From Chamaelirium japonicum (lineage: Eukaryota > Streptophyta > Magnoliopsida > Liliales > Melanthiaceae), in contig CANTAL010000023.1 of the NCBI GenBank assembly GCA_947650365.1, positions 689,501-753,500 on the forward strand: DNA of 64,000 nt, written 5' to 3'. The notes below the pieces were generated by a model. The model had not been told where the DNA came from. It saw only the letters and a program-made list of their open reading frames with translations, and ran no database searches. This document shows, piece after piece, positions 623 through 46,640 of the stretch (positions within the stretch are counted from its first letter, which is position 1; each line of letters begins with the position of its first letter). Made by a program: the position numbers and the translations under genes.

Positions 623-1370
623 CACTACAAGAAAGAGGGTCTTTACCGACGGACATTTTTATCACCGTCGGTAATAATACACTTTTTACTGACGGTGACT
701 ATAATATCCGTCGGTATTATAACTTCAATTTTTTAAATATTTTTTGCACATTTATTACCGACGGTTAAATATATTTCGTCGGTAAAACGATTTATACCGA
801 CGGTATAAATATGTCCCGTCGGTAATATACTTTATACCGACGGCTACATAAATACCGTCGGTAAAATGTCACAACGAAACACAGGGTAAAAACTGAGCCT
901 CTGGAAAAAAATGTGATCCTGAGTTTCGTCGGCGAGTTTTACCGACGGACTTTATATGTCCGTCGGTATAACTAATTATACCGATGGAAATTTTATGGCC
1001 GTCGGCACGATACCGACGGTAATTAAATATCCGTCGGTAAAATTGTCCCGATGAAACTCAGGGTAAAAACCGAGCCTCTGGAAAAAATGGAACCCTGAGT
1101 TTCGTCGGTGATTTTTATCGATGGACGTTATATTTCTGTCGGTATAACTAATTATACCGACGGAAATTATATGTTCGTCGGTATGATACCGACGGTAAAT
1201 AAATATCCGTCGGTAAAATTGTCCCGACGAAACTCAGGGTGAAACCCGAGCCTCTGGAAAAAAATTGGAACCCTGAGTTTCGTTGCTGATTTGTCCCGAC
1301 GGAAATTAGACTACCGTCGGTATAAAGTAATTATACCGACGGAACTTATAAGTTCCGTCGGTAAAAACCC
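623..1370 (+). repeat. 5' terminal inverted repeat and subterminal repeats of element A
   Basis: The end starts CACTACAAGAAA and is packed with the motif TACCGACGG or its complement CCGTCGGTA, mostly as facing pairs. In En/Spm-type elements such motifs bind the second element protein (TNPA) and regulate the promoter; that role here is inferred from the family. Three copies of a cassette at about 874-932, 1050-1108 and 1226-1284 carry a stem (CGAAACTCAGGGT facing ACCCTGAGTTTCG) around a loop of about 30 nt. The same design recurs at 33110-33853. Confidence 0.88.
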
Positions 1371-5800: not shown

Positions 5801-6441
5801 TGAATGAGGATCTCTGGCGCTTATCTTGTAGTCCTTTGCAAGACGCAATATCGTACGATGGTTATATCGTGAACGGTTATAGATTTCGGACGAAAGATAG
5901 TAAAAAATCACGAAGAACCCAAAATAGTGGGGTTGTCGTCAACGGTGAGCAAGAAGAATTAGAAAATATCGACTTCTACGGCGTCCTTAATGAGATTCTC
6001 GAGATTAAATTCCTTGGCCAAAATCGGATCGTATTATTCAAATGCGATTGGTATGATGTTAATAATCGCGGGACTGGTTATAATGTCGATAAATATGGTT
6101 TTATCAGCATCAACACTGGCAAAAGATTGAATACCCAATATCAAGATCCATTCATTCTTGCCTCTCAAGCGCAACAGATATTTTATGCACCGGATAATAC
6201 CTCTCTAGGTTGGCAAATTGTAGTCAGGTCACCACCCAGAGATTTTTATGACATAGGAGACAGGGATGCGGGGGTTGTCGATGATGATTTGGATGCATAC
6301 CAGAATGATGAGATAATCATTGTCGACGCAGTGCACGACGAAAATGAAGATGTCGACAATATAAACTGGACAGCGAATGCAGATCAAATAATAGAAGAGG
6401 GAAGCGATGAGAGTGACAGAGATGAGACAGAAAATGACTAG
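2841..6441 (+). pseudogene. TNP2-like CACTA transposase, element A copy, inactivated
   Basis: Four exons with GT-AG introns (5111-5188, 5497-5586, 5675-5766) encode a plant CACTA transposase. The order is a Transposase-associated region with CPCIDCG near residue 44, a Transposase_21 region (NPFGNMS, IWPVVLVPYNLPP), a DUF4218 region (RPEGSIAEGYLAEECL) and a DUF4216 region (TQNSGV, FKCDWYDV) with an acidic tail. The protein would bind element ends and catalyse cut-and-paste. Exon 1 has three in-frame stops: codon 362 (3924, Trp to TAG), codon 424 (4110, Trp to TAG) and codon 620 (4698, Gln to TAA). Exon 2 has a TAG at 5328 and a 1-bp deletion near 5416. The element B copy has sense codons at these sites, so they are lesions of this copy; most are C-to-T or G-to-A changes. 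The start follows the ATG shared by both copies. Confidence 0.9.
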
Positions 6442-6589
6442 ACCGTATGTAAATCAAATTGTTTCATATTTAAATCAAATTGTTTTATATGTATATCATA
6501 TTGTTTCATATGTAAATCATACCGTTTCACCAATTCATATATAAATCATACCGTTTCATATGTAAATCATACCGTTTCACCGATTTACG
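6442..6589 (+). repeat. Short minisatellite ATATGTAAATCATACCGTTTC
   Basis: A run of about 20-27-bp words (CATATGTAAATCA plus TACCGTTTCA or ATTGTTTCA) follows the transposase stop. Related runs occur at 7860-8060, and in element B at 25400-25600 and 27790-27950, always at the edges of the 181-bp arrays. No coding sense. Confidence 0.75.
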
Positions 6590-7859
6590 ATCCGATCGAT
6601 TCACCGATTTAGAGTCTAAGTGTTGGAAAATCATAAGTTAGCGTGTTTCGGATATGAAATAGGTTTGGATTCGATCCGATCGTCATCGGATCGGCATCCG
6701 ATAATTCGAACTTGGAATTATTCCGTATTTCGGACTTACGAGCGGGTTCTAATTGGATATTTGACCAATTTACGCTCCGATTCACCGATTTAGAGTCTAA
6801 GTGTTGGAAAATAATAAGTTAGCGTGTTTCGGATATGAAATAGGTTTGGATTCGATCCGATCGTCATCGGATCGGCATCCGATAATTCAAACTTGGAATT
6901 ATTCCGTATTTCGGACTTGCGAGCGGGTTCTAATTGGATATTTCACCAATTTACGATCCGATTCACCGATTTAGAGTCTAAGTGTTGGAAAATCATAACT
7001 TAGCGTGTTTCGGATATGAAATAGGTTTGGATTCGATCGGATCGTCATTGGATCGGCATCCGATAATTCGAACTTGGAATTATTCTGTATTTCGGACTTG
7101 CGAGTGAGTTCTAATTGGATATTTGACCAATTTACGCTCCGATTCACCGATTTAGAGTCTAAGTGTTGGAAAATCATAAGTTAGCATGTTTCTGATATAA
7201 AATAGGTTTGGATTCGATCGGATCGTCATCGGATCGGCATCCGATAATTCGAAGTTAGAATTATTCCGTATTTCGGAGTTGCAAGCGGGTTCTAATTGGA
7301 TATTTGACCAATTTACGATCCGATTCACCGATTTAGAGTCTAAGTGTTGGAAAATCATAACTTAGCGTGTTTCGGATATGAAATAGGTTTGGATTTGATC
7401 GGATCGTCATCGGATCGGCATCCGATAATTCGAACTTGGAATTATTTCGTATTTCGGACTTGCGAGCGAGTTCTAATTGGATATTTGACCAATTTACGCT
7501 CCGATTCACCGATTTAGAGTCTAAGTGTTAGAAAATCATAAGTTAGCGTGTTTCGGATATGAAATAGGTTTGGATTCGATCCGATCGTCATCGGATCGGC
7601 ATCCGATAATTCGAACTTGGAATTATATTCCGTATTTCGGACTTGCGAGCGGGTTCTAATTGGATATTTGACTAATTTACGATCCGATTAACCGATTTAG
7701 AGTCTAACTGTTGGAAAATCATAAGTTAGCGTGTTTCGAATATGAAATAGGTTTGGATTCGATCCGATCGTCATCGGATCGGCATCCGATAATTCGAACT
7801 TGGAATTATATTCCGTATTTCGGACTTGCGAGCGAGTTATAATTGGATATTTGACCAAT
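6590..7859 (+). repeat. 181-bp satellite array in element A, about 7 units
   Basis: Units begin near TTCACCGATTTAGAGTCTAA at about 6600, 6781, 6962, 7143, 7324, 7505 and 7688. The period is 181 bp, with 183-bp variants that carry ATTATATTCCG. The same repeat makes up both arrays in element B. It sits between the transposase gene and the second gene, as in B (25602-27790), and in the same orientation relative to the genes. Each unit happens to be open on one or both strands; these frames are not genes. Confidence 0.93.
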
Positions 7860-8067
7860 TATAACTGTTTTATTTGTAAATCATACCGTTTCATATGTAA
7901 ATCAAACTGTTTCATATTGTTACATAAATCATACTATTTCATATGTAAATCAAACTATTTCATATTGTTTCATATGTAAATCATACTGTTTCATATGTAA
8001 ATCAAACTATTTCATATTGTTTCATATGTAAATCTTACTATTTCATATGTAAATTAAATTGTTTCAG
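7860..8067 (+). repeat. ATATGTAAATC minisatellite upstream of the TNPA-like gene
   Basis: Near-repeats of CATATGTAAATCA(T/A)ACTRTTTCA lead directly into TTTCAG|ATG at 8067. They could belong to a leader or leader intron of the second gene: the polypyrimidine-CAG just before the ATG resembles a splice acceptor. Confidence 0.6.
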
Positions 8068-8590
8068 ATGGCATCACGGTCATATATTCGTAGAGGCAGA
8101 GGCAGGGGTGGGGTAGCTCGGAGCGCTCCGGCTGCCACCCCAGGGTTCGAGGCTGAGCCGTCCGGATCTGGTAGTGCTGTTCCTCTCTCCACACCAGCTC
8201 CTGATGTGGTCGCAGCCTCCGGAGCTTCGAGCAGTGCTCAGCACTCGGCTACAGCGTCTACGCCCACAGATAATGTTTAGATCTAAAGTTTTATACATAT
8301 TGTAAATACTTCTTCAGTACTGATGTATATTTTATTTGCAGGGTCGAGGATCACCAGGCATGTAGGCGACCGGGGCGTGACGACGGCCCGGCGCTTGTCG
8401 GCCTTACGCGAGCCGCTTTCCCTACAGTGGAGCGGTATGACCTTTGTGGGCGAGCACACTTCTGACGCCGCCACGTGGGTCGGCATTATAGTACGGGAGG
8501 AGAGGAATGCCCCGATTGTGGGGTTAAGGGGGTGGAAGAACATTGATGCATCCTATAAGGAGAGGATGTATCAGCAGTTTTTGGTACTGT
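8068..8590 (+). pseudogene. TNPA-like second CACTA gene, 5' part only (element A)
   Basis: Exon 1 starts at the ATG at 8068 (MASRSYIRRGRGRGG...) and is rich in Arg/Gly, then Ala/Ser/Pro. An intron probably ends with TTTGCAG at 8341. Exon 2 (from 8342) reads on into a Transposase_24-like segment ending ASYKERMYQQF. The gene is then cut off at the element's broken end near 8590. In the family this second protein binds the subterminal motifs and assists excision. The element B copy has lost this exon 2 but keeps the later exons, so the two copies hold complementary parts. The exon 1 donor position is uncertain. Confidence 0.75.
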
Positions 8591-14188: not shown

Positions 14189-14650
14189 CACTACAAAAAA
14201 AACAGTTATTACCGACGGAAAATATCCGTCGGTAATATTAACATTCCGTCGGTAATAGTTTATAGCGACGGAAGATATTTCCGTTGCCGGCTGTCGGGAA
14301 AAAAGGTGTCGGGGAAAACAATACGACGGACCAAATATTACCGTCGGTAATAATAATTAATACCGATAATAATATTAAAGCCGTCGGTCATATTTAATCA
14401 ATTAAAAATTAATATAATATATTATTGCCGACGAATCTTAATAATTCATCGGTAATATATAAGCATTTTACCTACGGTTATGGTATATACTGTCGGTAAT
14501 AATATATATATTACCGATGCATATATATGTCCCGTCGGTAATAATATATATATTACCGACGGATATTATATGCCGTCGGCAAATTATTTATAATTTAAAA
14601 AAAATGAAAATATTATTACCGACGGAATAATTAATGTCCGTCGTTAATAA
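14189..14650 (-). repeat. 3' terminal inverted repeat and subterminal repeats of element B
   Basis: From CACTACAAAAAAAACAG inward there are many ACCGACGG/CCGTCGGT motifs, spaced by AT-rich DNA. The terminal match to the 5' end is short and imperfect (CACTACAAaAAA against CACTACAAgAAA), and the motif arrangement is different. The hairpin cassettes of the 5' end are absent. Confidence 0.88.
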
Positions 14651-15079
14651 GTATGTTTTTTTTTTTATAAATTTACCTAAATAATGTTATTTAATTCCTG
14701 TGATTTACAACAATACCACAATATATTACCATAATTTATAAAATATTACCGCAAATTTTAAAATATTACCTAAATTGATAAAAAATTATAGCAAATTATC
14801 AAATATTACCACAGTACCCGACAATTATAGACAAGAACAAAAAATAACCACATATTACAAAATAATATTTATACAATCCAAAACTGAGAGATGATACATG
14901 CCCTATCTCAACCATCCCCGCCCGCCACCAACGCTGGTGCTCTCATCGATCCCCTGACGCCGCCCTATCTCAACCACCCCCACCCGCCACCAACGCTGGT
15001 GCTCTCATCGATCCCCTGACGCCGCCCTGCTCCTGCAACTAACATGTATTTGTTAAAAAAATGGTTTATATCTATAACT
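14651..15079 (-). other. 3' region of element B with a 62-bp tandem duplication
   Basis: 14651-14880 is AT-rich with repeated AAATATTACC words and no gene. A GC-rich 62-bp unit is then present twice (14901-14962 and 14963-15024). On the - strand it is preceded by TTGCAG, so it could be a last exon of the second element gene, but no reading frame is secure. From about 15053 the sequence passes into the satellite. Confidence 0.5.
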
Positions 15080-18000
15080 GAGTCTAAGCATTAAAAAATG
15101 ATAAGTTAGCGTGTTTCGGTTTTGAAATAGGTTTGGATTCGATCGGTTCGGCATCGGATCGACATCTGATAATTCGAACTTGGAATTATTCCGTATTTCG
15201 GACTTGCGAGCGGGTTCTAATTGGATATTTGACCAATTTACGCTCCGATTCACCGATTTAGAGTCTAAGTGTTGGAAAATCATAAGTTAGCGTGTTTCGG
15301 ATATGAAATAGGTTTGGATTCGATCGGATCGTCAACGGATCGGCATCCGATAATTCGAACTTGGAATTATTCCGTGTTTCGGACTTGCGAGCGGGTTCTA
15401 ATTGGATATTTGACCAATTTACGATCCGATTCACCAATTTAGAGTCTAAGTGTTGGAAAATCATAAGTTAGCGTGTTTCGGATATGAAATATGTTTGAAT
15501 TCGATCGGATCGTCATCGGATCGGCATCCGATAATCCGAACTTGGAATTATTCCGTATTTCGGACTTGCGAGCGGGTTCTAATTGGATATTTGACCAATT
15601 TACGATCCGATCGATTCACCGATTTAGAGTCAAAGTGTTAGAAAATCATAAGTTAGCGTGTTTCGGATATGAAATTGGTTTGGATTCGATCGGATCATCA
15701 ACGGATCGGCATCCGATAATTCGAACTTGGAATTATTCTGTATTTCGGACTTGCGAGCGGGTTCTAATTGGATATTTGACCAATTTACGATCCGATTCAC
15801 CGATTTAGAGTCTACATGTTGGAAAATCATAAGTTAGCGTGTTTCGGATATGAAATATGTTTGGATTCGATCGGATCGTCATCGGATCGGCATCCGATAA
15901 TTTATACTTGGAATTATTCCGTATTTCGGACTTGCGAGCGGGTTCTAATTGGATATTTGACCAATTTACGCTCTGATTCACCGATTTAGAGTCTAAGTGT
16001 TGGAAAATCATAAGTTAGCGTGTTTCAGATATGAAATAGGTTTGGATTCGATCCGATCGTCATTGGATCGGCATCCGATAATTCGAACTTGGAATTATTC
16101 CGTATTTCGGACATACGAGTGGGTTCTAATTGGATATTTGGCCAATTTACGCTCCGATTCACCGATTTAGAGTCTAAGTGTTGGAAAATCATAAGTTAGC
16201 GTGTTTCGGATATGAAATTTGTTTGGATTCGATCGGATCGTCAACGGATCGACATCCGATAATTCAAACTTGGAATTATTCCGTATTTCGGACTTGCGAG
16301 CGGGTTCTAATTGGATATTTGACCAATTTACGATCCGATCGATTCACCGATTTAGAGTCTAAGTGTTGGAAAATCATAAGTTAGCGTGTTTCGGATATGA
16401 ATTAGGTTTGGATTCGATCGGATCGTCAACGGATTGGCATCCGATAATTCGAACTTGGAATTATTCCGTATTTCGGACTTGCGAGCGGGTTCTAATTGGA
16501 TATTTGATAAATTTACGATCCGATTCACCGATTTATAGTCTAAGTGTTGGAAAATCATAAGTTAGCGTGTTTCGGATATGAAATATGTTTGGATTCGATC
16601 GGATCGTCATCGGATCGACATCCGATAATTCAAACTTGGAATTATTCCATATTTCGGACTTGCGAGCGGGTTCTAATTGGATATTTGACCAATTTACGAT
16701 CCGATTGATTCACCGATTTAGAGTCTAAGTGTTGGAAAATCATAAGTTAGCGTGTTTCGGATATGAAATAGGTTTGGATTCGATCGGATCATCAACGGAT
16801 CGGCATCCGATAATTCTAACTTGGAATTATTCTGTATTTCGAACTTGCGAGCGGGTTCTAATTCGATATTTGACCAATTTACGATCCGATTCACTGATTT
16901 AGAGTCTAAGTGTTGGAAAATCATAAGTTAGCGTGTTTCGGATATAAAATATGTTTGGATTCGATCGGATCGTCATCGGATCAGCATCCGATAATTCAAA
17001 CTTGGAATTATTTCATATTTCAGACTTGCGAGCGGGTTCTAATTGGATATTTGACCAATTTACGATCCGATCGATTCACCGATTTAGAGTCTAAGTGTTG
17101 GAAAATCATAAGTTAGCGTGTTTCGGATATGAAATAGGTTTGGATTTGATCGGATCGTCAACGGATCGGCATCCGATAGTTCGAACTTCGAATTATTCTG
17201 TATTTCGGACTTGCGAGCGGGTTCTAATTAGATATTTGACCAATTTACGATCCGATTCACCGATTTAGAGTCTAAGTGTTGGAAAATCATAAGTTAGCGT
17301 GTTTCGGATATGAAATATGTTTGGATTCGATCGGATCGTCATCGGATCGGCATCCGATAATTCGAACTTGGAATTATTCCGTATTTCGAACTTGCGAGCG
17401 GGTTCTAATTGGATATTTGACCAATTTACGATCCGATCGATTCACCGATTTAGAGTCTAAGTGTTGGAAAATCATAAGTTAGCGTGTTTCGGATATGAAA
17501 TAGGTTTGGATTCGATCGGATCGTCAACGGATCGGCATCCGATAATTCGAACTTGGAATTATTCCATATTTCGGACTTGCGAGCGGGTTCTAATTGGATA
17601 TTTGACCAATTTACGCTCCGATTCACCGATTTAGAGTCTAAGTGTTGGAAAAACATAAGTTAGCGTGTTTCGGATATGAAATAGGTTTGGATTCGATCGG
17701 ATCGTCATCTGATCGGCATCCGATAATTTGAAGTTGGAATTATTCCGTATTTCGGACTTGCGAGCGGGTTCTAATTGGATATTTGACCAATTTACGATCC
17801 GATTCACCGATTTAGAGTCTAAGTGTTGGAAAATCATAAGTTAGCGTGTTTCGGATATGAAATAGGTTTGGATTCAATCCGATCGTCATCGGATCGGTAT
17901 CCGATAATTCGAACTTGGAATTATATTCTATATTTCGGACTTGCGAGCGAGTTATAATTGGATATTTGACCAATTTACGCTCCGATTCAGCGATTTAGAG

Positions 18001-21000
18001 TCTAAGTGTTGGAAAATCATAAGTTAGCGTGTTTCGGATATGAAATAGGTTTGGATTCGATCCGATCGTCATCGGATCGGCATCAGATAATTCGAACTTG
18101 GAATTATTTCGTATTTCGGACTTGCGAGCGGGTTCTAATTGGATATTTGACCAATTTACGCTCCGATTCACCGATTTAGAGTCTAAGTGTTGGAAAATCA
18201 TAAGTTAGCGTGTTTCGGATATGAAATAGGTTTGGATTCGACCGGATCGTCATCGGATCGGCATCCGATAATTCGAAGTTGGAATTATTCCGTATTTCGG
18301 ACTGGCGAGCGGGTTCTAATTGGATATTTGACCAATTTACGATCCGATTCACCGATTTAGAGTCTAAGTGTTGGAAAATCATAAGTTAGGGTGTTTCAGA
18401 TATGAAATAGGTTTGGATTCGATCCGATCGTCATCGGATCGGCATCCGATAATTCGAACTTGGAATTATATTCCGTATTTCGTTCTTGCGAGCGAGTTAT
18501 AATTGGATATTTGACCAATTTACGCTCCGATTCACCGATTTAGAGTCTAAGTGTTGGAAAATCATAAGTTAGCGTGTTTCGGATATGAAATAGGTTTGGA
18601 TTCGTTTCGATCATCATCGGATCGGCATCCGATAATTCGAACTTGGAATTATTTTGTATTTCGGACTTGCGAGCGGGTTCTAATTGGATATTTGACCAAT
18701 TTACGCTCCGATTCACCGATTTAGAGTCTAAGTGTTGGAAAATCATAAGTTAGCGTGTTTCGGATATGAAATAGGTTTGGATTCGATCGGATCGTCATCG
18801 GATCGGCATCCGATAATTCGAAGTTGGAATTATTCCGTATTTCGGACTTGCGAGCGGGTTCTAATTAGATATTTGACCAATTTACGATCCGATTCACCGA
18901 TTTAGAGTCTAAGTGTTGGAAAATCATAAGTTAGCGTGTTTCGGATATGAAATAGGTTTGGATTCGATCCGATCATCATTGGATCGGCATCCGATAGTTC
19001 GAACTTGGAATTATATTCCGTATTTCGGACTTGCGAGCAGAGTTATAATTGGATATTTGACCAATTTACGCTCTGATTCACCGATTTAGAGTCTAAGTGT
19101 TGGAAAATCATAAGTTAGCATGTTTCGGATATGAAATAGGTTTGGATTCGATCGGATCGTCAACGGATCGGCATCAGATAATTCGAACTTGGAATTATTC
19201 CGTATTTCGAACTTGCGAGCGGGTTCTAATTGGATATTTGACCAATTTACGCTCCGATTCACCGATTTAGAGTCTAAGTGTTGGAAAATGATAAGTTAGC
19301 GTGTTTCGGATATGAAAGAGGTTTGGATTCGATCGGATCGTCAACGGATCGACATTCGATAATTCGAACTTGGAATTATTCCGTATTTCGGACTTGCGAG
19401 TGGGTTCTAATTGGATATTTGACCAATTTACGATCCGATCGATTCACCGATTTAGAGCCTAAGTGTTGGAAAATCATAAGTTAGCGTGTTTCAGATATGA
19501 ATTAGGTTTGGATTCAATCGGATCGTCAACGGATTGGCATCCGATAATTCGAACTTGGAATTATTCCGTATTTCGGACTTGTGAGCGGGTTCTAATTGGA
19601 TATTTGATAAATTTACGATCCGATTCACCGATTTATAGTCTAAGTGTTGGAAAATCATAAGTTAGCGTGTTTCGGATATGAAATATGTTTGGATTCGATC
19701 GGATCGTCATCGGATTGGCATCCGATAATTCGAACATGGAATTATTCCGTATTTCGGACTTGCGAGCGGGTTCTAATTGGATATTTGACCAATTTACGAT
19801 CCGATTGATTCACCGATTTAGAGTCTAAGTGTTGGAAAATCATAAGTTAGCGTGTTTCGGATATGAAATAGGTTTGGATTCGATCGGATCATCAACGGAT
19901 CGGCATTCGATAATTCTAACTTGGAATTATTCTGTATTTCGAACTTGCGAGCGGGTTCTAATTGGATATTTGACCAATTTACGATCTGATTCACTGATTT
20001 AGAGTCCAAGTGTTGGAAAATCATAAGTTAGTGTGTTTCGGATATGAAATATGTTTGGATTCGATCGGATCGTCATCGGATCGACATCCGATAATTCGAA
20101 CTTGGAATTATTTCATATTTCGGACTTGCGAGCGGGTTCTAATTGGATATTTGACCAATTTACGATCCGATCGATTCACCGGTTTAGAGTCTAAGTGTTG
20201 GAAAATCATAAGTTAGCGTGTTTCAGATATGAAATAGGTTTGGATTCGATCGGATCGTCAACGGATCGGCATCCGATAATTCGAACTTGAAATTATTCTG
20301 TATTTCGGACTTGCGAGCGGGTTCTAATTGGATATTTGACCAATTTACGATCCGATTCACCGATTTAGAGTCTAAGTGTTGGAAAATCATAAGTTAGCGT
20401 GTTTCGGATATATAATATGTTTGGATTCGATCGGATCGTCATCGGATCGGCATCCGATAATTCGAACTTGGAATTATTCCGTATTTCGGACTTGCGAGTG
20501 GGTTCTAATTGGATATTTGACCAATTTACGATCCGATCGATTCACCGATTTAGAGTCTAAGTGTTGGAAAATCATAAGTTAGCGTGTTTCACATATGAAA
20601 TAGGTTTGGATTCGATCGGATCGTCAACGGATCGGCATCCGATAATTCGAACTGGGAATTATTCCATATTTCGGACTTGCGAGCGGGTTCTAATTGGATA
20701 TTTGACCAATTTACGCTCCGATTCACCGATTTAGAGTCTAAGTGTTGGAAAAACATAAGTTAGCGTGTTTCGGATATGAAATAGGTTTGGATTCGATCGG
20801 ATCGTCATCTGATCGGCATCCGATAATTCGAAGTTGGAATTATTCCGTATTTCGGACTTGCGAGCGGGTTCTAATTGGATATTTGACCAATTTACGATCC
20901 GATTCACCGATTTAGAGTCTAAGTGTTGGAAAATCATAAGTTAGCGTGTTTCGGATATGAAATAGGTTTGGATTCAATCCGATCGTCATCGGATCGGCAT

Positions 21001-23656
21001 TCGATAATTCGAACTTGGAATTATATTCCATATTTCGGACTTGCGAGCGAGTTATAATTGGATATTTGACCAATTTACGCTCCGATTCATCGATTTAGAG
21101 TCTAAGTGTTGGAAAATCATAAGTTAGCGTGTTTCGGATATAAAATAGGTTTGGATTCGATCCGATCGTCATCGGATCGGCATCCGATAATTCGAACTTG
21201 GAATTATTTCGTATTTCGGACTTGCGAGCGGGTTCTAATTGGATATTTGATCAATTTACGCTCCGATTCACCGATTTAGAGTCTAAGTGTTGGAAAATCA
21301 TAAGTTAGCGTGTTTCGGATATGAAATAGGTTTGGATTCGATCGGATCGTCATCGGATCGGCATCCGATAATTCGAAGTTGGAATTATTCTGTATTTCGG
21401 ACTGGCGAGCGGGTTCTAATTGGATATTTGACCAATTTACGATCCGATTCACCGATTTAGAGTCTAAGTGTTGGAAAATCATAAGTTAGCGTGTTTCGGA
21501 TATGAAATAGGTTTGGATTCGATCCGATCGTCATTGGATCGGCATCCGATAATTCGAACTTGGAATTATATTCCGTATTTCGTTCTTGCGAGCGAGTTAT
21601 AATTGGATATTTGACCAATTTACGCTCCGATTCACCGATTTAGAGTCTAAGTGTTGGAAAATCATAAGTTAGCGTGTTTCGGATATGAAATAGGTTTGGA
21701 TTCGATTCGATCGTCATCGGATCGGCATCCGATAATTCGAACTTGGAATTATTTTTTATTTCGGACTTGCAAGCGGGTTCTAATTGGATATTTGACCAAT
21801 TTACGCTCCGATTCACCGATTTAGAGTCTAAGTGTTGGAAAATCATAAGTTAGCGTGTTTCGGATATGAAATAGGTTTGGATTCGATCGGATCGTTATCG
21901 GATCGGTATCCGATAATTCGAAGTTGGAATTATTCCGTATTTCGGACTTGCGAGCGGGTTCTAATTGGATATTTGACCAATTTACGATCCGATTCACCGA
22001 TTTAGAGTCTAAGTTTTGGAAAATCATAAGTTAGCGTGTTTCGGATATGAAATAGGTTTGGATTCGATCCGATCATCTTCGGATCGGCATCCGATAGTTC
22101 GAACTTGGAATTATATTCTGTATTTTGAACTTGCGAGCGAGTTATAATTGGATATTTGACCAATTTACGCTCCGATTCACCGATTTAGAGTCTAAGTGTT
22201 GGAAAATCATAAGTTAGCATGTTTCGGATATGAAATAGGTTTGGATTCGATCGGATCGTCAACGGATCGACATCAGATAATTCGAACTTGGAATTATTCC
22301 GTATTTCGGACTTGCGAGCGGGTTCTAATTGGATATTTGACCAATTTACGCTCCGATTCACCGATTTAGAGTCTAAGTGCTGGAAAATCATAAGTTAGTG
22401 TGTTTCGGATATGAAATAGGTTTGGATTCGATCGGATCATCATCGAATCGGCATCCGATAATTCGAAGTTGGAATTATTCCGTATTTCGGACTTGCGAGC
22501 GGGTTCTAATTGGATATTTGACCAATTTACGATCCGATTCACCGATTTAGAGTCTAAGTGTTGGAAAATCATAAGTTAGCGTGTTTCGGATATGAAATAG
22601 GTTTGGATTCGATTCGATCGTCATCGGATCGGCATCCGATAATTTGAACTTGGAATTATATTCCGTATTTCGGACTTGCGAGCGAGTTATAATTGGATAT
22701 TTGTCCAATTTACGCTCCGATTCATCGATTTAGAGTCTAAGTGTTGGAAAATCATAAGTTAGCGTGTTTCGGATATGAAATAGGTTTGGTTTCGATCCGA
22801 TCATCATCGGATCGGCATCCGATAATTCGAACTTGGAATTATTCCATATTTCGGATTTGCGAGCGGGTTCTAATTGGATATTTGACCAATTTACGCTCCG
22901 ATTCACCGATTTAGAGTCTAAGTGTTGGAAAATTATAAGTTAGCGTGTTTCGAATATGAAATAGGTTTGGATTCGATCCGATCGTTATCGGATCGGCATC
23001 CGATAATTCAAACTTGGAATTATTCCGTATTTCGGACATGCGAGCGGGTTCTAATTGGATATTTGACCAATTTACGCTCCGATTCACCGATTTAGAGTCT
23101 AAGTGTTGGAAAATCATAAGTGAGCGTGTTTCAGATATGAAATAGGTTTGGATTCGATCCGATCGTCATCGGATCGGCATCCGATAATTCAAACTTGGAA
23201 TTATTCCGTATTTCGGACTTGTGAGCGGGTTCTAATTGGATATTTGACCAATTTACGATCCGATTCACCGATTTAGAGTCTAAGTGTTGGAAAATCATAA
23301 GTTAGCGTGTTTCGGATATGAAATAGGTTTGAATTCGATCCGATCATCATCGGATCGGCATCCGATAATTCGAACTTGGAATTATATTTCGTATTTCAGA
23401 CTTGTGAGCGAGTTATAATTGGATATTTGACCAATTTACGCTTCGATTCACCGATTTAGAGTCTAAGTGTTGGAAAATCATAAGTTAGCTTGTTTCGGAT
23501 ATGAAATAGGTTTGGATTTGATCCGATCGTCATCGAATCGGCATCCGATAATTCGAACTTGGAATTATATTCCGTATTTCAGACTTGCGAGCGGGTTCTA
23601 ATTGGATATTTAACCAATTTACGATCTGATTCACCGATTTAGAGTCTAAGTGTTGG
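15080..23656 (+). repeat. 181-bp satellite array, about 47 units, inside element B
   Basis: Head-to-tail units of about 181 bp (GATTTAGAGTCTAAGTGTTG ... TTGACCAATTTACG). Variants of 183 bp (ATTATATTCCG) and 185 bp (extra GATC, giving GATCCGATCGATTCACC) recur in order. This yields higher-order periods of about 366 bp (15.4-17.4 kb and again 19.3-20.6 kb) and about 545 bp (17.6-19.1 kb, 20.7-23.6 kb). The orientation is opposite to the array at 25602-27790. Overlapping 68-codon open frames occur in most units on either strand, but a 181-bp period shifts frame each unit, so these are not genes. Confidence 0.93.
16170..22370 (+). repeat. 3,100-bp tandem segmental duplication within the satellite array
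   Basis: Unit variants in 16.17-19.27 kb recur in the same order 3,100 bp later (19.27-22.37 kb). Landmark starts such as 16178/19278, 16363/19463, 16910/20010, 17276/20376, 17631/20731, 18176/21276 and 18540/21640 all differ by exactly 3,100. Private variants such as TTAGCATG with CATCAGATAATT (about 19120 and 22220) are shared. Units outside these limits do not match at this offset. Confidence 0.85.
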
Positions 23657-23761
23657 CATTACATCTTTCTACTATATTCTCTTTGTATAATCGTAAAAAG
23701 TAACAATTGCATGAGTGAATTTAAAATAATTTGCACTTACAAAGCTTCAGTCAAAGTTTAC

Positions 23762-23875
23762 CTGTATGCCAGCATAACTGCAGAGATAGAAATCGAACTC
23801 CGTTGGGTGGCATATTGTTGTGTCCACTACAAATGTCACATGAGGGAGATATCCCTCTTCCAACGAGGCACACAC
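23762..23875 (-). pseudogene. Captured Argonaute (PIWI domain) exon fragment
   Basis: On the - strand one 38-codon exon reads [17 protein letters not shown] then [16 protein letters not shown] and YAGIQ. It is bounded by an acceptor-like TGCTAG and a donor CAG|GTAAAC. Both halves are signature segments of the plant AGO1/AGO5/AGO10-type PIWI domain. In the family they are separated by a few dozen residues (the QKRHHTRLF segment and a variable loop). Here they are fused at the shared Val-Val, so the fragment has an internal deletion. It lies downstream of, and in the same sense as, the element's second gene, between the large satellite array and a satellite scrap. It cannot make a working Argonaute: the MID and most of the PIWI domain, including the catalytic residues, are absent. 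The surrounding 23657-23950 looks like intron remnants. Confidence 0.88.
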
Positions 23876-23950
23876 CTAGCATGATTAAAAAATAAAATTC
23901 TATAATTTTAAAGAAAAACAGAGGCTACATCATTACCATGAGAGAGAGAG

Positions 23951-24008
23951 AGACCATTTACGATCCGATTTACCGATTTAGAGTCTAAGTGTTGGAAAAT
24001 CATAAGTG
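23951..24008 (+). repeat. Partial 181-bp satellite unit beyond the Argonaute fragment
   Basis: ATTTACGATCC...GTTGGAAAATCATAAGT is a piece of one satellite unit, preceded by a short GA run. It shows that the Argonaute fragment is flanked by satellite on both sides, so it was either inserted into the array or was present before the array grew. Confidence 0.8.
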
Positions 24009-24083
24009 TGATAATATGATCTAAACTCAAATTAGTAAGATTCATATTTTTTGCTAATATTATAAAGATTAGTAAGTACCTGA

Positions 24084-25399
24084 TCATGAGGATGAGCCAC
24101 TGCTAGACCGGCTTATGAATTCATAAAATTTACGCTCCAGTTCCCTGCGAGCTTCTCTTTCCTCATCGAGGGCCTTCTTCTCCGCCTCAACCCTCTGCAC
24201 GAGGGCCTGCCTCTGCTCTCGCTCCGCCTAAATCCTCTGCTCGAGGGCCTTCCTCTGCTCTCGCTCCGCGTCTAGCGTAGACTGCAGCTGAGTGATAGCA
24301 CCGGTCTGGGTGTCCCGTGCTCTCGAGCGCATACCCTCTCGTCCAAAGTAGGAGGAGGGTGTGACTCCAAGGCCCGTACAGAGGACACGGTCGTGCGTGG
24401 CAGGTCTCAGCACAGTATCCATCGCTGAGTCGACAGATACTGAGCTGGAGGAGGAGCCGGCCTCGCCCGATGGGGTCACCAGAAGTCGCATCCTCTCCTA
24501 TATAAAAACAACCAATGATATTCAATGATATTTTATGGCATATGTATAAGAATATATTAACAGTAATTTAATTACTTACCACTTGCGAGGCAACCCTGTC
24601 GTCCAGAAATGCCCCATCGATACGCCGCCTCCTAGAGGCCTCCAAAAGGTCAATCCTATTAGGCTCGTGGCCCAAGGACTGTGTCTGTTGGACATATAAA
24701 ATAAATAAATGAGTTAATATAACATGTATAGAGCTTTAAATAATAACAATGTTTGTATCATTTACCAGCTGCTGGGCAAGCTGGGGCATGGAGGTCCTCT
24801 CCTTCACTGGAGCAGGTGTCGTCGAGGCACTTCTATTCTGCTTGCCTATAGCAGATTTCCTCTGTGTTAATCGATTAAATTTTGAAACATCAATACAAAT
24901 TTTTAGTATAACATTAAAATAAGTACGAATCAACAAAATTATAATTATACCTGAAAGCTAGGGGTGGCCCAGTGAACGACCAAAAACTGTAGAACGTGTA
25001 GCGGTGGCGTGTCTCTCGTCCCGACCGCAGCCTGTACCTCCTCAGCCGGCTGGCCGACCAAGTAACCGTAGAGCTGGTAGAGCTCGTGACAGTAATCCCT
25101 GTACCGCTCACCCATCATCTTCCACAAGTCCTCCCGATGGGTGTCGATTTCCATGTTCTCCCATATAAATTTCTCCTCTAAAATCAATTTAGAAACAAGT
25201 CATTTTATCAAATCAAATTATAAAGAAGTACGATATTATTTTAAAATGCTTTAGAGGCTGCGACCACATCAGGAGCTGGTGTGGAGAGAGGAGCAGCACT
25301 ACCAGATCCGGACGGCTCAGCCTCGGACCCTGGGGTGGTAGCCGGAGCGCTCCAAGCTGCCCCACCCCTGCCTCTACGAACATATGACCGTGATGCCAT
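24084..25399 (-). pseudogene. TNPA-like second CACTA gene, element B copy, inactivated
   Basis: Exons on the - strand, by GT-AG borders: 25399 to about 25253 (MASRSYVRRGRGG...), 25177-24951 (FIWENMEIDTHREDLWKMMG, Transposase_24-like), 24861-24766, 24678-24580 (HEPNRIDLLEASRRRRIDG) and 24497-24084 (Ser-rich, then an Arg/Glu/Gln coiled coil, ending SRSSSGSSS). Exon 1 runs into unrelated sequence: the rest of exon 1, the first intron and the exon 2 preserved at 8342-8590 are missing. A TAG at 24228-24230 interrupts the coiled coil. The family role is binding of subterminal motifs and regulation of the element promoter. The satellite array and Argonaute fragment lie just downstream, possibly within a former last intron or 3' region. 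Confidence 0.82.
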
Positions 25400-25601
25400 C
25401 TAAAATAGTTTAATTTACATATGAAACAGTAAGATTTACATATGAAACAATATGAAACAGTTTAATTTACATATGAAACAGTATGATTTACATATGAAAC
25501 AATATGAATCAGTTTGATTTACATATGAAACAGTATGATTTATGAAACAATATGAAATAGTTTGATTTATATATGAAACGGTATGATTTACATATGAAAC
25601 A
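25400..25601 (-). repeat. ATATGAAACAGTATGATTTAC minisatellite
   Basis: Complement of the short repeat flanking the array in element A. It lies between the second gene's ATG and the smaller satellite array. Confidence 0.75.
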
Positions 25602-27790
25602 GTTATAATTGGTCAAATATCCAATTATAACTCGCTCGTAAGTCCGAAATACGGAATATAATTCCACGTTCGAATTATCGGATGCCGATCCGATGACGAT
25701 CGGATCGAATCCAAACCTATTTCATATCCGAAACACGCTAACTTATGATATTCCAATACTTAGACTCTAAATCGGTGAATCGGATCGTAAATTGGTCAAA
25801 TATCCAATTAGAACCCGCTCGCAAGTTCGAAATACGAAATAATTCCAAGTTCGAATTATCGGATGCCGATCCGATGACGATCGAATCGAATCCAAACCTA
25901 TTTCATATCCGAAACACGCTAACTTATGATTTTCCAACACTTAGACTCTAAATCGGTGAATCGGATCGTAAATTGGTCAAATATCCAATTAGAACCCGCT
26001 CGCAAGTCCGAAATACGGAATAATTCCAAGTTCGAATTATCGGATGCCGATCCGATGACGATCGGATCGAATCCAAACCTATTTCTTATCCGAAACACGC
26101 TAACTTATGATTTTCCAACACTTAGACTCTAAATCGGTGAATCGGAGTGTAAATTGGTCAAATATCCAATTATAACTCACTTGCAAGTCCGAAATACGGA
26201 ATATAATTCCAAGTTCGAATTATCGGATGCCGATCCGATGACGATCGGATCGAATCCAAACCTATTTCATATCCGAAACACGCTAACTATTGATTTTCCA
26301 ACACTTAGACTCTAAATCAGTGAATCGAATCGTAAATTGGTCAAATATCCAATTAGAACCCGCTCGCAAGTCCAAAATACGGAATAATTCAAAGTTTGAA
26401 TTATCGGATGCCGATCCGATGACGATCCGATCGAATCCAAACATATTTCATATCCGAAACACGCTAACTTATGATTTTCCAACACTTAGACTCTAAATCG
26501 GTGAATCGGATCGTAAATTGGTCAAATATCCAATTAGAACCCGCTCGCAAGTCTAAAATACGGAATAATTCCAAGTTCGAATTATCGGATGCCGATCCGA
26601 TGACGATCGGATCGAATCCAAACCTATTTCATATCCGAAACACGCTAACTTATGATTTTCCAACACTTAGACTCTAAATCGGTGAATCGGATTGTAAATT
26701 GGTCAAATATCCAATTAGAACCCTCTTGCAAGTCCGAAATACGGAATAATTCCAAGTTAGAATTATCGGATGCCGATCCGATGACGATCGGATCGAATCC
26801 AAACCTATTTCATATCCGAAACACGCTAACTTATGATTTTCCAACACTTACACTCTAAATCGGTGAATCGGAGCGTAAATTGGTCAAATATCCAATTATA
26901 ACTCGCTCGCAAGTCCGAAATACGAAATATAATTCCAAGTTCGAATTATCGGATGCCGATAAGATGACGATCAGATCGAATCCAAACCTATTTCATATCC
27001 GAAACACGCTAACTTATGATTTTCCAACACTTAGACTCTAAATCGGTGAATCAGATCGTAAATTGGTCAAATATCCAATTAGAACCCGCTCGCAAGTCCG
27101 AAATACGGAATAATTCCAAGTTCGAATTATCGGATACCGATCCGATGACGATCCGATCGAATCCAAACATATTTAATATCCGAAACACGTTAACTTATGA
27201 TTTTCCAACACTTAGACTCTAAATCGGTGAATCGGATCGTAAATTGGTCAAATATCCAATTAGAACCCGCTCGCAAGTCCGAAATACGGAATAATTCCAA
27301 CTTCGAATTATCGGATGCCGATCTGATGACGATCGGATCAAATCCAAACCTATTTCATATCCGAAACACGCTAACTTATGATTTTCCAACACTTAGACTC
27401 TAAATCGGTGAATCGGAGCGTAAATTGGTCAAATATCCAATTAGAACCCGCTCGCAAGTCCGAAATACGGAATAATTCCAAGTTCAAATTATCGGATGCC
27501 GATCCGTTGACGATCTGATCGAATCCAAACCTATTTCATATCCGAAACACGCTAACTTATGATTTTCCAACACTTAGACTCTAAATCGGTGAATCGGATC
27601 GTAAATTGGTCAAATATCCAATTAGAACCCGCTCGCAAGTCCGAAATACGGAATAATTCCAAGTTTGAATTATCGGATGCCGATCCGTTGACGATCCGAT
27701 CGAATCCAAACCTATTTCATACCCGAAACACGCTAACTTATGATTTTCCAACACTTAGACTCTAAATCGGTGAATCGATCGGATCGTAAA
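25602..27790 (-). repeat. 181-bp satellite array, about 12 units, between the two genes of element B
   Basis: The same satellite as 15080-23656 in reverse orientation. It starts at TTATAATTGGTCAAATATCC and ends near CGGTGAATCGATCGGATCG. It matches the position and relative orientation of the seven-unit array in element A, so this array is probably ancestral to the family. The large array is a B-specific expansion. Confidence 0.93.
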
Positions 27791-27953
27791 TCGGTGAAAC
27801 GGTATGATTGACATATGAAACGGTATGATTTACATATAAATCAGTAAAACGGTATGATTTACATATGAAACAATATGATATACATATGAAACAATATGAT
27901 TTATATATGAAACAATTTGATTTAAATATGAAACAATTTGATTTACATACGGT
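27791..27953 (-). repeat. ATATGAAACAATATGATTTAC minisatellite downstream of the transposase
   Basis: Short repeats of 20-27 bp, the counterpart of 6442-6589 in element A. No gene. Confidence 0.7.
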
Positions 27954-30900
27954 CTAGTCATTTTCTGTCTTATCTCTGTCACTCTAATCGCTTCCCTCTT
28001 CTATTATTTGATCTGCATTCACTGTCCAGTTTATATTGTCGACATCTTCATTTTTGTCGTGCACTGCCTCGACAATGATTATCTCATCATTTTGGTATGC
28101 ATCCAAATCATCATCGACGACCCCCGCATCCTTATCTCCCATGTCATAAAAATCTCTGGGTGGTGACCTGACTACAATTTGCCAACCTGGAGAGGTACTA
28201 TCCGGTGCATAAAATATCTGTTGCGCTTGAAAGGCAAGAATGAATGGATCTTCATATTGGGTATTCAATCTCTTGCCAGTGTTGATGCTGATAAAACCGT
28301 ATTTGTCGACATTATAACCAGTCCCGCGATTATTAACATCATACCAATCACATTTGAATAATATGATCCGATTTTGGCCAAGGAATTTAATCTCGAGAAT
28401 CTCGTTGAGGACGTCGTAAAAGTCGATATTTTCTAATTCTTCTTGCTCACCGTTGACGACAACCCCACTATTTTGGGTTCTTCGTGATTTTTTACTATCT
28501 TTCGTCCGAAATCTATAACCGTTCACGATATAACCATCGTACGATATTGCGTCTTGCAAAGGACTACAAGATAAGCTCCAGAGATCCTCATTCATCAGCG
28601 GATCGTGGTTGTCGTGCAGCTCTTGTGCCTATAATAACCACATGACATTCATGATATGAACACATAATTATTGTTCGGTAATAGATGTCAATGAAATTCA
28701 GTAATGATGTGAATACTTACGTGTTTCTCGAACCATGATGGGAATTCACGATCATGAATTTGGGGAGCATTTCGAGTACCCCGATTATTAATGATGGCTT
28801 TATGCTTCCTGTTTTACCAGTTATGAATTAGATTATAATTAGCATATATACTTAATGAATGGACTGAAAGAATGAGTAAATGATCGTAAAATGCTTACTC
28901 AATGAATGGCCACACTTCATCACATTGGCGCAACACATACATATGTGCCTGTTGAATCTCATCTACAGACAATCGACGGGTTTTGCCTCCTCCTACAGGT
29001 CTACCCATTTCGGCAAATATAGACAGACCCCCATCGAAGTCTATTGGACCACCGTCATAGTTCCGCTCAAGTTGATTGAATCACGTGTCTATACCATGTA
29101 GGTATCTTGAGCAGAATGTTAGACATTCTTCTGCTAGGTATCCATCAGTAATTGATCCCTCCGGACGACTTTTATTACGATCATATGATTTCAATGTTCG
29201 CAAGTACCTAATTTGAGAAAAAAATATTTGGATGAATATATCAAGAACGATCAAATACATTGTACGAATGAGACGAGACGATTACCTCTCGATAAAATAC
29301 ATCCAGCGGTAATGAACTGGGCCGCCGAGTTTGGCCTCATTTGCCAAGTGAACGGTCAAATGCACCATGACATCAAAGAAGGAAGGTGGAAATATCATCT
29401 CTAACTTGCACAATGTGAGCGCAATATCCCTCTCCATCTGTTCAAGTTGGTCTAGTCTAAGTACCTTCGAGCACAACTGTCTGAAAAAGTGCTGAGCTCA
29501 ATTAACGGACCGGACACCTGTTCGGTTAAATTCCCTCGTATAGCAAGAGATAACAATCGCTGCATAAGAACATGACAATCGTGGCTCTTTAATCCAGACA
29601 ACTTCCGGCCGTTTTCTTGCACGCATCGTGCGATATTCGAAGAATAACCGTCTGGCGTTTTCACAGACCGTAGGAATGCACATAAGGCTGCCTTTTGCTG
29701 TGAGCTTATGGTGTAGCATGCAACTGGCAACACATACTTATCCCCAATATCTTGGGGATGAAGTGATTTTCGGATGCCCAACTCCTTAAGATCGAGACGA
29801 GATTTAAGATTATCCTTCGTCTTACCGTCGAGATTCAACAGTGTTCCTATAATGTTGTCACATACATTTTTCTCGATATGCATGACATCCAAGTTATGCC
29901 GCAAGAGTAGGCTGCTCCAATACGGTAGTTTAAAGAAAATACTCTTCTTCTTCCAGTTATGCTCACGCGTAGAATCTTCATGCGTTCTCTTCTTTTTACC
30001 TTTTCCAAGTGCCACGGCATCAAGCTGATCCAATTCGCACAAGACTTCTACCCCCGAAAGCTGCTCCAGGGCCTTTGCAAGTTCCTTCTTACCGTTGAAA
30101 GCTCTTTTGTTCTGCCTCCACTTATGGCCGTCAACAAGGTATCTTCGATGGCCCATATAACAGAACTTGCCTCCGTTCTTCAACCGTAATGAATCTGTCT
30201 CCTTATTGCATGTAGTGCACGCCAATTTTCCTTTAGTACTCCACTCGGATAAGTTGGCATATGCAGGAAAATCGTTGATGGTCCATAGAAGTGCCGCATG
30301 CATCCGAAAATTCTAGCGCAACGAGGCATCATACGTATCGGCCCCAACATCCCATAACTCGTTCAACTCCTCAATCAACGGCTGCAAGTAAACGTCAATA
30401 TGATTACCAGGCGACCTGGGTCCGGGAATGAGCAAGGAGAGCATTGTGTATGGCTTTTTTAAGCACATCCAGGGAGGCAAATTGTATGGAACTAGGACAA
30501 CTGGCCAAATGCTGTACGACACACTCATATTCCCAAAGGGATTGAAGCCATCGCTAGCAAGCCCTAACCTGACGTTGCGAACTTCACATGCGAATTCAGG
30601 ATAGGTATGATCAAAATCTTTCTACGTCAGAGAGTCGGCCGGATGTCTCATAATCCCATCATCTGTACGTTCTCGTGCATGCCACCTCATGTGCTCAGCA
30701 GTCTTCGATGACATAAACAACCTCTGAAGCCTGTCCCTGAGTGGGAAGTATAGGAGAACCTTTGCAGATACATTTTTCTTCCTTCGACTGGTACTAGACT
30801 CGGCATCCGTCTCTTTATATCTCGTTGCTCTGCATATATGGCATGACCGCGCATGTTCATACTCTTTCCGATACAATATACAACGTTCACGCATGCATTA

Positions 30901-31553
30901 ATTTTCTCATAACCCAGACCGAGATCTTTAATTGTCTTCTTCGCCTCGTAGAATGATTTCGGTACTGTCTCACCCATAGGAAAAGCCTCTTTCAGCAACT
31001 CTACCAACATATTAAACGACTTATTACTCCAACCATTGAGGCACTTCAAATGAAGAAGATTTACAGTGAAAGAGAGTTTTGAAAACTTCTCACACCCCGG
31101 GTATAGAGGTTGTTCGGCATCTTTAAGCAATCTGTAGAACTTGTCCGCTTCGATATTGGGCTGATCACCTGACGGTGTTTCCGTGCCTATTCCACCTTGC
31201 AAATCATGTATCATACCCTGCATGTCATCGTCATCGTCTGTATTAATATTATCATCAGCAATCACTGTGTTTGAAGTTTCACCGTGAGCTGCCATGGGGA
31301 CTGCATCTAGCTCCTCACCGTGCGAGAACCAACGGGTATAGCTAATGTCAATGCCACGCATTACCAGATCAACCTCATATTCCTCTCGAACCTTCCTAAT
31401 CAACCTTCCGCAGTCTATACAGGGACACACAATTTTTCCATCAAGCGGTGCAAGACGCTCAAATGCAAAATCCAGAAATTTCCTGACTCCTTCTCTGTAC
31501 TCTTGGCTCATGCGATTTGAATTACGCATCCAACTCTTATCGATCGAAGACAT
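27954..31553 (-). pseudogene. TNP2-like CACTA transposase, element B copy, inactivated
   Basis: Same gene structure and product as the element A copy (ATG at 31553; first intron 29208-29285, also 78 bp; last exon DUF4216-like). Its lesions differ: a 1-bp deletion near 30885 after NACVN; TAG at 30622 (Trp); TAG at 30313 just before NFRMHAAL; a 1-bp loss in a T run near 29484; TGA at 29081 (Arg, CGA to TGA); and TAG at 27984, which would remove the last 10 residues. Element A is intact at all of these places. Neither copy can make the full transposase, although exon borders and most domains are well kept, so decay is recent. Confidence 0.9.
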
Positions 31554-32800
31554 CTTCGTCTATCTGGCTATACAACACCTGACATATAATTTCAAACAAT
31601 GTTATAAGACTCCGCACAATTTCGGTTTCGATTCCCAGGTATGGAACACCGAACCAAAACTTCTACAGGCCATCCACATCCCTAATAGATGAGTGTATTA
31701 TGATGAGTAGACTAGTCACATAGTAAACCTAGGGTTGCTGGCCAGCATTTGAACTGCTGATAGTTCGAATGCTAGGCATAGCACCAAAGTTATGCGATAG
31801 TAAGTCAACAAGTCAGGGAGCCTCATCAAGTAAACACTTGGGGTCTGACGGTTCTCTCTATCGCTCGAGTAGATTTATGGCTTTAGCATACCTCATATCA
31901 CACCAAACCGACAAAAATCGACCATTTCGGTTTCGGTTTCGATTTCGATTTCGGTTTCGGTTTTGATTTTTCGTAAACCGAAAAAAATATAATCGACAAA
32001 ACCCACACCGAAACCGACCGACAAAACCGACGCTCACCCTAGTCTAAAAACTACATTTTGCCCCCCATTCCCCTATTCAATTCAGTTTTGATAGGATAAA
32101 AATCTATGTTTTAAAACACGAAAACTCGACTCGACTCGAAACCTTAATGAGTCGAGTAGACACGACAACTCGGCTAAAACCCGACAAAACTCGAGTCGGA
32201 TCGAAACTCAGCCGAGTCGGATCGAAACTCGAGTTTTGGACCGAGTCGGATCGAAACTCAGCCGAGTCGAGTCGACTCGGCTGAGTTTCGAGTCGACTCG
32301 GCGAGTTTTAAAACAGTGTAAAAATTACCAAATGAGGGAATTAACCAGTTTTGATAAGATAAAAATTACTCATATGAATGAATTGGAATAACTCATATGA
32401 ATCGTATGATAATAACTCATATGAATGAATCGTATGAATGGATACATTCCCATTCGATTCCCCCCATTCAATTCAGTTTTGATAAGATAAAAATTATCAA
32501 ATAAGTATGCAATTTTCATAAGGGAATTCAGTACGTAGATGACAAAATTTGTATGCAATTTTGATAAGATAACATTTCAAACTTTAGTATACAATTTGGA
32601 ACAAATTAACCTAAGGGGGAAAGGGAGGAGGAGGAGGAGCTCACCAGCGATGGTCGGCAGGCCTCGAGAAGGAGGAGGAGCACTGGTGTCGCAGTCGGTG
32701 GAGCGAGAAAGGGGAGGGGTGGCCGGAGGTGCAAGGGAGGGGATGGGTGGCCGGCCGGAGGGGGGGTTTAGATCGAGAGAGAGAGAGAGGTGAGGGGAGG

Positions 32801-32847
<47 letters not shown>

Positions 32848-33110
32848 AGGCTAGGGAGGCCGGGGAGGGGGGGAGGAGGTCGGGGAGAGAGAGAGAGAGG
32901 GCCGGGAGGCCGGAGAGGGGCGGAGGTCAGGAGGGGGATGGGTGGCCGGGAGGGGGATGGGTGGCCGGAGGGGATCGCGCGGCTGCCGGAGGGGGACGGG
33001 GTCGCCGGACAGGTCGGGTCGGTGAGAGAGAGAGAGAGATTCAGAGAGGGGCGTCGGATTCGGTCGAAATAGAAAAAGAAATGGGGTGGCTGCAAGGTAT
33101 ATTGGATGGG
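31554..33110 (-). other. 5' leader and promoter region of element B, with simple repeats
   Basis: It matches element A upstream of the ATG through the GAAACC hexamers (about 31930-31975) and the GACTCG palindrome block (about 32115-32315). It then diverges: 32320-32600 has ATGAATGAATCGTATGAATG words and AT-rich DNA not found in A. 32640-33060 is a GC/GA-rich tract with a long GA microsatellite (about 32803-32844). The 125- and 172-residue open frames here are translations of that tract. Confidence 0.55.
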
Positions 33111-33853
33111 TTTTTACCGACGGAACTTATAAGTTCCGTCGATATAATTACTTTATACCGACGGTAGTATAATTTCCATCGGTAAAAATCAGCTACGAAA
33201 CTCAGGGTTCCATTTTTTTTCCAGAGGCTCGGGTTTCACCCTGAGTTTCGTCGGGATAATTTTACCGACGGATATTTATTTACCGTCGGTATCGTACCGA
33301 CGGACATATAATTTCCGTCGGTATAATTAGTTATACCGGACATATAACGTCCGTCGGTAAAAACCGCCGACGAAACTCAGGGTTCCATTTTTTTCCAGAG
33401 GCTCGGTTTTTACCCTGAGTTTCGTCGGGACAATTTTACCGACAGATATTTAATTATCGTCGGTATCGTGCCGACGGCCATAAAATGTCCGTCGGCATAA
33501 TTAGTTATACCGACGGACATATAAAGTCCGTCGGTAAAAATCTCCGACGAAACTCAGGGTTCCATTTTTTTCCAGAGGCTCGGTTTTTACCCTGAGTTTC
33601 GTCGTGACATTTTACCGACGGTCTTTATGTAGCCGTCGGTATAAAGTATATTACCGACGGTACATATATGTACCGTCGGTATAAATCATTTTACCGACGA
33701 ATACTATTTGACCGTCGGTAATAAATGTGCAAAAAAATTTTAAAAAATTGAAGTTAAAATATCGACGGATATTATAGTCACCGTCGGTAAAAAGTATATT
33801 ATTACCGACGGTGATAATAATGTCCGTCGGTAAAGACCCTATTTCTTGTAGTG
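33111..33853 (-). repeat. 5' terminal inverted repeat and subterminal repeats of element B
   Basis: Counterpart of 623-1370. Dense TACCGACGG/CCGTCGGTA pairs and three hairpin cassettes (about 33195-33253, 33369-33428, 33545-33604), ending ...CTATTTCTTGTAGTG. The terminal sequence differs from element A by one base in the first 17. Confidence 0.9.
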
Positions 33854-46624: not shown

Positions 46625-46640
46625 GTTACCCCCTCCAAGT
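46625..46640 (-). other. Polypurine tract
   Basis: On the - strand TTGGAGGGGGTAAC lies immediately before the 3' LTR start TGTGGGTG. This is the expected position for priming plus-strand DNA synthesis. Confidence 0.85.

Follow-up and report, generated by a model that had tools for sequence, protein, structure and literature searches.

The window, a 64,000-nucleotide stretch of a Chamaelirium japonicum contig (CANTAL010000023.1, positions 689,501–753,500), holds two CACTA transposons that face each other head-on (Table 1). Element 2 ends in inverted CACTACAA termini, on the plus strand at 14189 and on the minus strand at 33853, and the triplets flanking it, CAT and CGT, agree at two of three bases as an imperfect 3-bp duplication. 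Its tnpD-like gene matches Transposase_21 (PF02992; E values 1.4e-50 and 7.2e-33) and also contains PF13963 and PF13952; together, the inverted termini and the transposase match bear out the CACTA carrier proposed in the original prediction. The tnpD-like gene is read in several frames and is thus either damaged in this copy or interrupted by introns. The tnpA-like gene, whose family assignment we presume, has one in-frame TAG in its last exon and lacks sequence present in element 1 at 8398–8583. Four of its pieces were compared with Pfam; three gave no model and one gave weak models below the cut-offs. Along the minus strand, the order in element 2 is tnpD, array A, tnpA-like gene, Argonaute piece and array B, and the Argonaute exon lies, as had been proposed, in sense with the tnpD and tnpA-like genes.

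Table 1. Positions of the features discussed, in coordinates of the 64,000-nucleotide window
Feature	Position	Strand	Basis
CACTA element 1, facing element 2	623..8219	+	
CACTA element 2, 19,665 bp, bounded by CACTACAA termini	14189..33853	-	terminal motif scan, terminus comparison
Satellite array B, 47 copies of 181 bp, orientation opposite to array A	15080..23656	+	TRF
Captured Argonaute DNA (295 bp), fused exon between two partial introns	23657..23951	-	aligned to gene locus L061
Fused exon	23762..23875	-	phmmer match, splice borders
Satellite remnant between tnpA and captured piece, direction opposite to array A	23952..24008	-	
tnpA-like gene, 5 putative exons	24084..25399	-	
181-bp satellite array A, 12 copies, same direction as genes	25607..27781	-	TRF, key-word positions
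tnpD-like transposase gene: Transpos_assoc, Transposase_21/tnp2, DUF4216	27984..31559	-	Pfam, ORF list

The two satellite arrays are approximately 95% identical as reverse complements, and satellite DNA bounds the captured piece on both sides, with array B ending at 23656 and the remnant beginning at 23952. The piece had been placed next to the satellite; the contact is real, and the position is inside the satellite rather than beside it. Similarly, the interval first assigned to the Argonaute piece, 23657–24008, comprises the insert proper and 57 bases that are satellite, with the right junction of the insert ambiguous across a GACC common to both sides. Array B shows a higher-order pattern, spacings of 181 alternating with 183–185 bases, and within it an ACGATC variant often returns every ~545 bases.

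Elements 1 and 2 are ~92–96% identical across their aligned parts outside the satellites, and as this homology stops at ~8219, element 1 cannot show the captured piece. Dense 130- to 270-bp repeats in both orientations, rich in purines or pyrimidines, surround both CACTA elements (8990–14180 and 33860–45700). Further along, an LTR retrotransposon at 45889–58799 carries a gypsy-type reverse transcriptase, RNase H and gag on the minus strand; a 736-bp stretch is 99.7% identical at its two ends and indicates a recent insertion. Inside it, antisense to gag-pol, a 764-amino acid open frame (48290–50584, plus strand) gave a weak Transposase_28 match only (E 2.5e-4, below the cut-off).

Argonaute Exon and Apparent Donor Gene

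The fused exon is 114 bp or 38 codons long, begins and ends in phase 0 and is bordered by CATGCTAG on its 5′ side and GTAAAC on its 3′ side (acceptor CTAG, donor CAG/GTAAAC). The minus-strand open frame 23747–23875 encodes two Argonaute PIWI strings, and both the frame and the splice borders are thus present as originally described. A phmmer search of the PDB sequences matched the exon to plant AGO10 (7sva) with an E value of 3.7e-12, agreeing with the proposed Argonaute origin; AGO10 was the only plant Argonaute among the PDB matches listed, and animal Argonautes matched more weakly. The Pfam Piwi model hit the frame with an E value of 2.1e-4, under its curated cut-off. The AGO10 match falls in two separate stretches, residues 817–835 and 862–885, and, counted at the common Val–Val, 32 residues of AGO10 are absent from the exon, a number equal to the loss relative to the donor gene described below.

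We searched the host genome (1.52 Gb, 3,253 contigs) for the source of the piece. A locus at 90.73 Mb of contig C2 (L061) contains PAZ, PIWI exons and an Argonaute-like C-terminus, indicating that the apparent donor still exists. PAZ (PF02170) occurs at nine places genome-wide, and among the loci more than 90% like the fragment, this is the only one with PAZ nearby. The donor sequence used is the 8-kb stretch at this locus. Judged by an EEGYLP motif and an EGDSEGG C-terminus, we take the gene to belong to the AGO1/5/10 group and to be most like AGO5/MEL1; it is probably AGO5-like.

Two donor exons, 4314–4449 and 4531–4604, together make 210 bp or 70 codons in frame, and the fused exon corresponds to donor 4314–4365 joined to 4543–4604. 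The fusion thus removed 177 bp: 84 bp of exon, 81 bp of intron and 12 bp of exon. GTGG stands at both ends of the deletion (TGTAGTGG compared with TGTCGTGG), one donor exon being cut off after TTTGTAGTGG and fused to the DNA that follows GTCGTGG in the next. The internal loss at a Val–Val microhomology, which had been read from the protein strings, is therefore seen in the DNA itself. The window exon differs from the donor exons at 3 of 114 positions and both flanks of the insert align to donor introns, as expected if genomic DNA was captured together with adjoining intron sequence, as had been proposed.

Copies in the Host Genome

With a 32-bp query and at most two mismatches, the fusion junction was found at 202 places in the host genome and its control at none; the unfused junction was found at 14 places, the gene included. 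The tnpA 3′ tail is present at 951 places (control 0). For the analyses of copies, 150 of 279 candidate places were scored with the protein query, and the best 40 of 705 candidates, with identities of 98–100%, with the DNA query. Copies of the fused exon are spread over contigs C1 to C12 and many small contigs. Among the 30 loci best by protein score, 28 show the arrangement of the window, in the order tnpA, satellite and Argonaute piece. On contig C1, at least 16 of 70 listed tnpA tails (at most one mismatch) have a listed Argonaute piece within 1.5 kb, a lower bound as both lists are incomplete.

The DNA 3′ of the Argonaute piece varies, passing directly into satellite as in the window in 4 of 30 loci. 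In eight of the 30 fetched copies (L011, L017–L019, L021, L027, L029 and L030), the Argonaute intron passes into a different piece, in which TTATCAG resembles a splice acceptor and an open stretch (KKAVATSHCSQPNTIEYEMAM...) occurs. The open stretch of L017 had no match in Pfam and is perhaps from a second captured gene.

Probable History of Capture and Spread

The fetched loci that are not the gene and are ~90% identical to it mostly cover gene positions 3887–4913 or part of these, flanked by a tnpD piece at one end and mostly by satellite at the opposite end; at the tnpD border, the tnpD piece reaches position 1637 of the tnpD segment used as query. Of the 16 fetched loci with neither gene status nor the fusion, eight have in common a tnpD–gene border at 3887–3889, seven begin at gene position 4256, and one (L048) begins at 3904 with no tnpD match. 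The group of seven (L053 and L055–L060) represents another derivative of this capture that was amplified, and it has its own deletion, joining gene 4331 to 4406, which is also found in L050, a locus with the tnpD border. TTTAGG words are plentiful in all seven copies (18–69 each), and L056 is 98–99.5% identical to L059 and L060. One locus, L064, extends to sequence resembling the 3′ end of the element. Two copies, L004 and L024, combine the fused exon with the 3887 border and a longer gene context. In a tree of the 295 common columns, 12 of whose 16 inner branches are left open, all 10 fused copies used form one clade (100/100).

We hand-picked eight further tnpA copies. One (L109) has uninterrupted satellite and represents the empty site, two (L105 and L108) have the full insert at 96% identity, and five (L106, L107, L110, L111 and L112) retain only the first 47 bp of the insert, with an identical end point. 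The 47-bp remnants apparently go back to one common deletion, and the remnant subfamily has multiplied too. With this mixture, the idea that copies chosen for lacking the Argonaute piece would serve as a clean control turned out to be only partly true. Stretches L095–L104, of which L101 alone was inspected, are outside every count.

The sequence comparisons make a particular order of events likely, leading from the gene through the capture of 1 kb, the exon fusion and a transfer beside tnpA to a burst and a loss. They support that 1,027 bp of the gene, comprising PIWI exons and introns, was joined, probably once, to a CACTA derivative between its tnpD and its satellite. Within that lineage, the 177-bp microhomology deletion fused two exons in frame, and 295 bp of the fused version is present in the satellite beside tnpA in another CACTA subfamily. 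It would have moved there from the older element, by repair or template switching across the satellite DNA common to both. A burst would have brought the fusion to the ~200 places where it is now found, and a later loss would have occurred in one derivative that itself spread. We infer the direction of the transfer to the tnpA element from the longer gene context kept in L004 and L024. Capture by a CACTA element, as originally predicted, agrees with this order; the window element itself was probably not the capturer, as ~1 kb of the gene is found in derivatives of other CACTA elements, with the exon already fused in two of them, and only the 295-bp part is present here.

Probable Passenger Status and Possible Effects at the RNA Level

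The reading that we favor, and hold with reasonable confidence, is that the piece arose by transduplication from a host Argonaute gene of the AGO1/5/10 group and is carried as a passenger in a CACTA family. We infer that it has no function of its own, though chance splicing may add it as an exon after tnpA and it may, as a side effect, contribute siRNAs that match the donor gene.

The latter possibility leads to the main competing reading, which we consider unlikely: an anti-silencing or conflict element, whose ~200 copies would give siRNAs that lower the donor Argonaute, or which would be shielded as silencing it would harm the gene. A 51-nt run is identical between the donor exons and 24 of the 31 copies best by protein score (the window included), making siRNA action on the donor gene possible on the grounds of sequence, and in 23 of the 31, the donor exons contain exact matches to 43 of the 94 exon 21-mers. 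Precedents are described for miR820 and DRM2 in rice (PMC3459959), for TART-A and nxf2 in Drosophila (PMC7785250) and for epigenetic conflict in maize (PMC13317346), where work summarized in a 2026 review views captured pieces as reservoirs of siRNAs and a source of conflict. Likewise, Arabidopsis AGO5 is reported to bind transposon small RNAs, and ago5 plants to have less CHG and CHH methylation at transposons, above all at long ones in sperm (PMC10980394). In its most specific form, slightly more doubtful still, the family would have taken a germline AGO5/MEL1-like gene hostage: ~200 exon copies would feed siRNAs that damp the gene, or would make silencing costly, and so aid the burst.

Against the conflict reading stands the foldback of the insert, which is no better than that of controls. 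The best 21-nt stretch of the insert has 17 of 21 bases paired, or 18 with flanks included, and 43 of 48 control strands reach at least 17. In the window, the insert has no exact inverted stretch of more than 12 bases and no second exact stretch of more than 13 bases, direct or inverted. The subfamily with only 47 bp of intron (five of the eight copies read) has spread too, and the 951 tnpA tails outnumber the 202 fusion junctions. The whole insert folds no better than shuffles on the sense strand and mildly better on the antisense strand (5/200 and 22/500); the exon by itself adopts a branched fold that few shuffles match (2/500 on the plus strand and 8/500 on the minus strand). A microRNA precursor is not favored, as the duplex is no better than that of control segments, and a scan of the window with Rfam at gathering scores gave no match. 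The original prediction had further suggested that the bordering repeats could yield double-stranded RNA. The inverted satellite arrays could indeed form a hairpin; tnpA and the exon would then sit in the loop and not in the stem, and neither the suggested double-stranded RNA nor the suggested small RNAs to a host Argonaute are so far supported.

Coding Evidence

Another reading gives the piece a role as protein: the fused exon would be spliced into tnpA transcripts and a TnpA–PIWI fusion peptide would be under selection. We regard this as improbable, distinctly more so than the conflict reading. The exon is symmetric in phase 0 and its splice signals are intact; the fourth putative tnpA exon, judged by eye, ends in the matching phase, and captured fragments in a soybean CACTA element are reported to be spliced as exons (PMC1947982). 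The regular last tnpA exon, however, has a stop ahead of the fragment. We also presume that the PIWI portion in the exon is without the catalytic residues.

The variation among copies speaks in the same sense. In the 40 copies chosen by DNA match, differences from the majority per site and copy are 0.0055 in the exon, 0.0086 upstream and 0.0060 downstream, and the 25 exon changes consist of 9 synonymous, 15 replacement and 1 stop. With the expected synonymous share at 22–30%, depending on the C-to-T bias, the chance of at least 9 of 25 is 0.08–0.31. When distinct exon variants are counted once each, 8 of 18 are synonymous (chance 0.03–0.13), a weak hint of constraint that would favor the fusion peptide. 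The 40 copies are the best DNA matches of the 705 candidates, and older copies are therefore undersampled. A first set of 31 copies, picked by protein score, had suggested selection on the exon through its very low diversity, 0.006 compared with 0.021 and 0.052 in the flanks, the downstream figure including copies with broken-off homology; this effect was mostly gone in the 40 copies chosen by DNA, and we rejected the idea. Neutrality in the coding sense would still leave room for a function at the RNA level.

That a real Argonaute gene was merely joined to satellite DNA in the assembly, a test posed by the original prediction and conceivable where junctions sit in satellite DNA, in which assemblies can fail, is refuted by the repeated independent loci: with the fusion junction at 202 places, the fused exon on many contigs, the arrangement repeated at 28 of 30 loci and an apparent donor assembled at a separate locus, the piece is neither chance nor an assembly join.

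Discussion

Gene capture by CACTA elements is already known; this Argonaute member, with its donor, its steps and its ~200 copies, appears to be new. Among the titles and opening lines of abstracts listed in our literature searches, we found no Argonaute fragment captured by a CACTA element, and the peptide strings of the exon gave no match in the literature.

Among the closest known systems are CACTA elements with pre-miR820 in rice, which similarly carry a piece resembling a silencing gene, exon and intron included, that has multiplied with the element (PMC3459959). There, the piece forms the stem-loop of a proven microRNA with OsDRM2 as its target, whereas the piece in the window derives from an Argonaute and folds no better than controls; the rice element is reported to have 5 copies in Nipponbare, and a BB genome to have at least 18, in contrast to the ~200 places of the Argonaute piece. 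Tgm-Express1 of soybean is likewise a CACTA element that holds intron-bearing fragments with usable splice sites (PMC1947982), but it is an insertion in F3H with five fragments, and here one fragment belongs to a large dispersed family. CACTA elements of Chenopodium contain both a short captured piece, 80 bp of AP2, and satellite arrays (PMC8978399), the gene pieces being on the 5′ side and the satellites on the 3′ side; in the window, the gene piece is within the satellite.

Pack-CACTA or Pack-TYPE elements have CACTA termini and shuffled gene pieces (PMC8903248). They are nonautonomous and contain no transposase sequence, unlike the window element, which keeps both tnpD and tnpA-like sequence; the old copies of the L064 type, read without their 5′ end, may be of the Pack-CACTA sort. 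Outside plants, TART-A likewise carries a piece of a silencing-pathway gene, nxf2, but it is a telomeric element of an animal with documented antisense piRNAs (PMC7785250), and the window element is a plant CACTA.

Models of epigenetic conflict propose that transposons gain by carrying pieces of genes that the host cannot afford to silence. To test such models, one needs a known donor, a capture, a later loss and copy numbers, and the family described here has an apparent Argonaute donor and readable steps. Sister copies that retain the whole insert, others reduced to 47 bp and one whose site is empty coexist in this genome, and small-RNA and methylation data would thus allow them to be compared directly.
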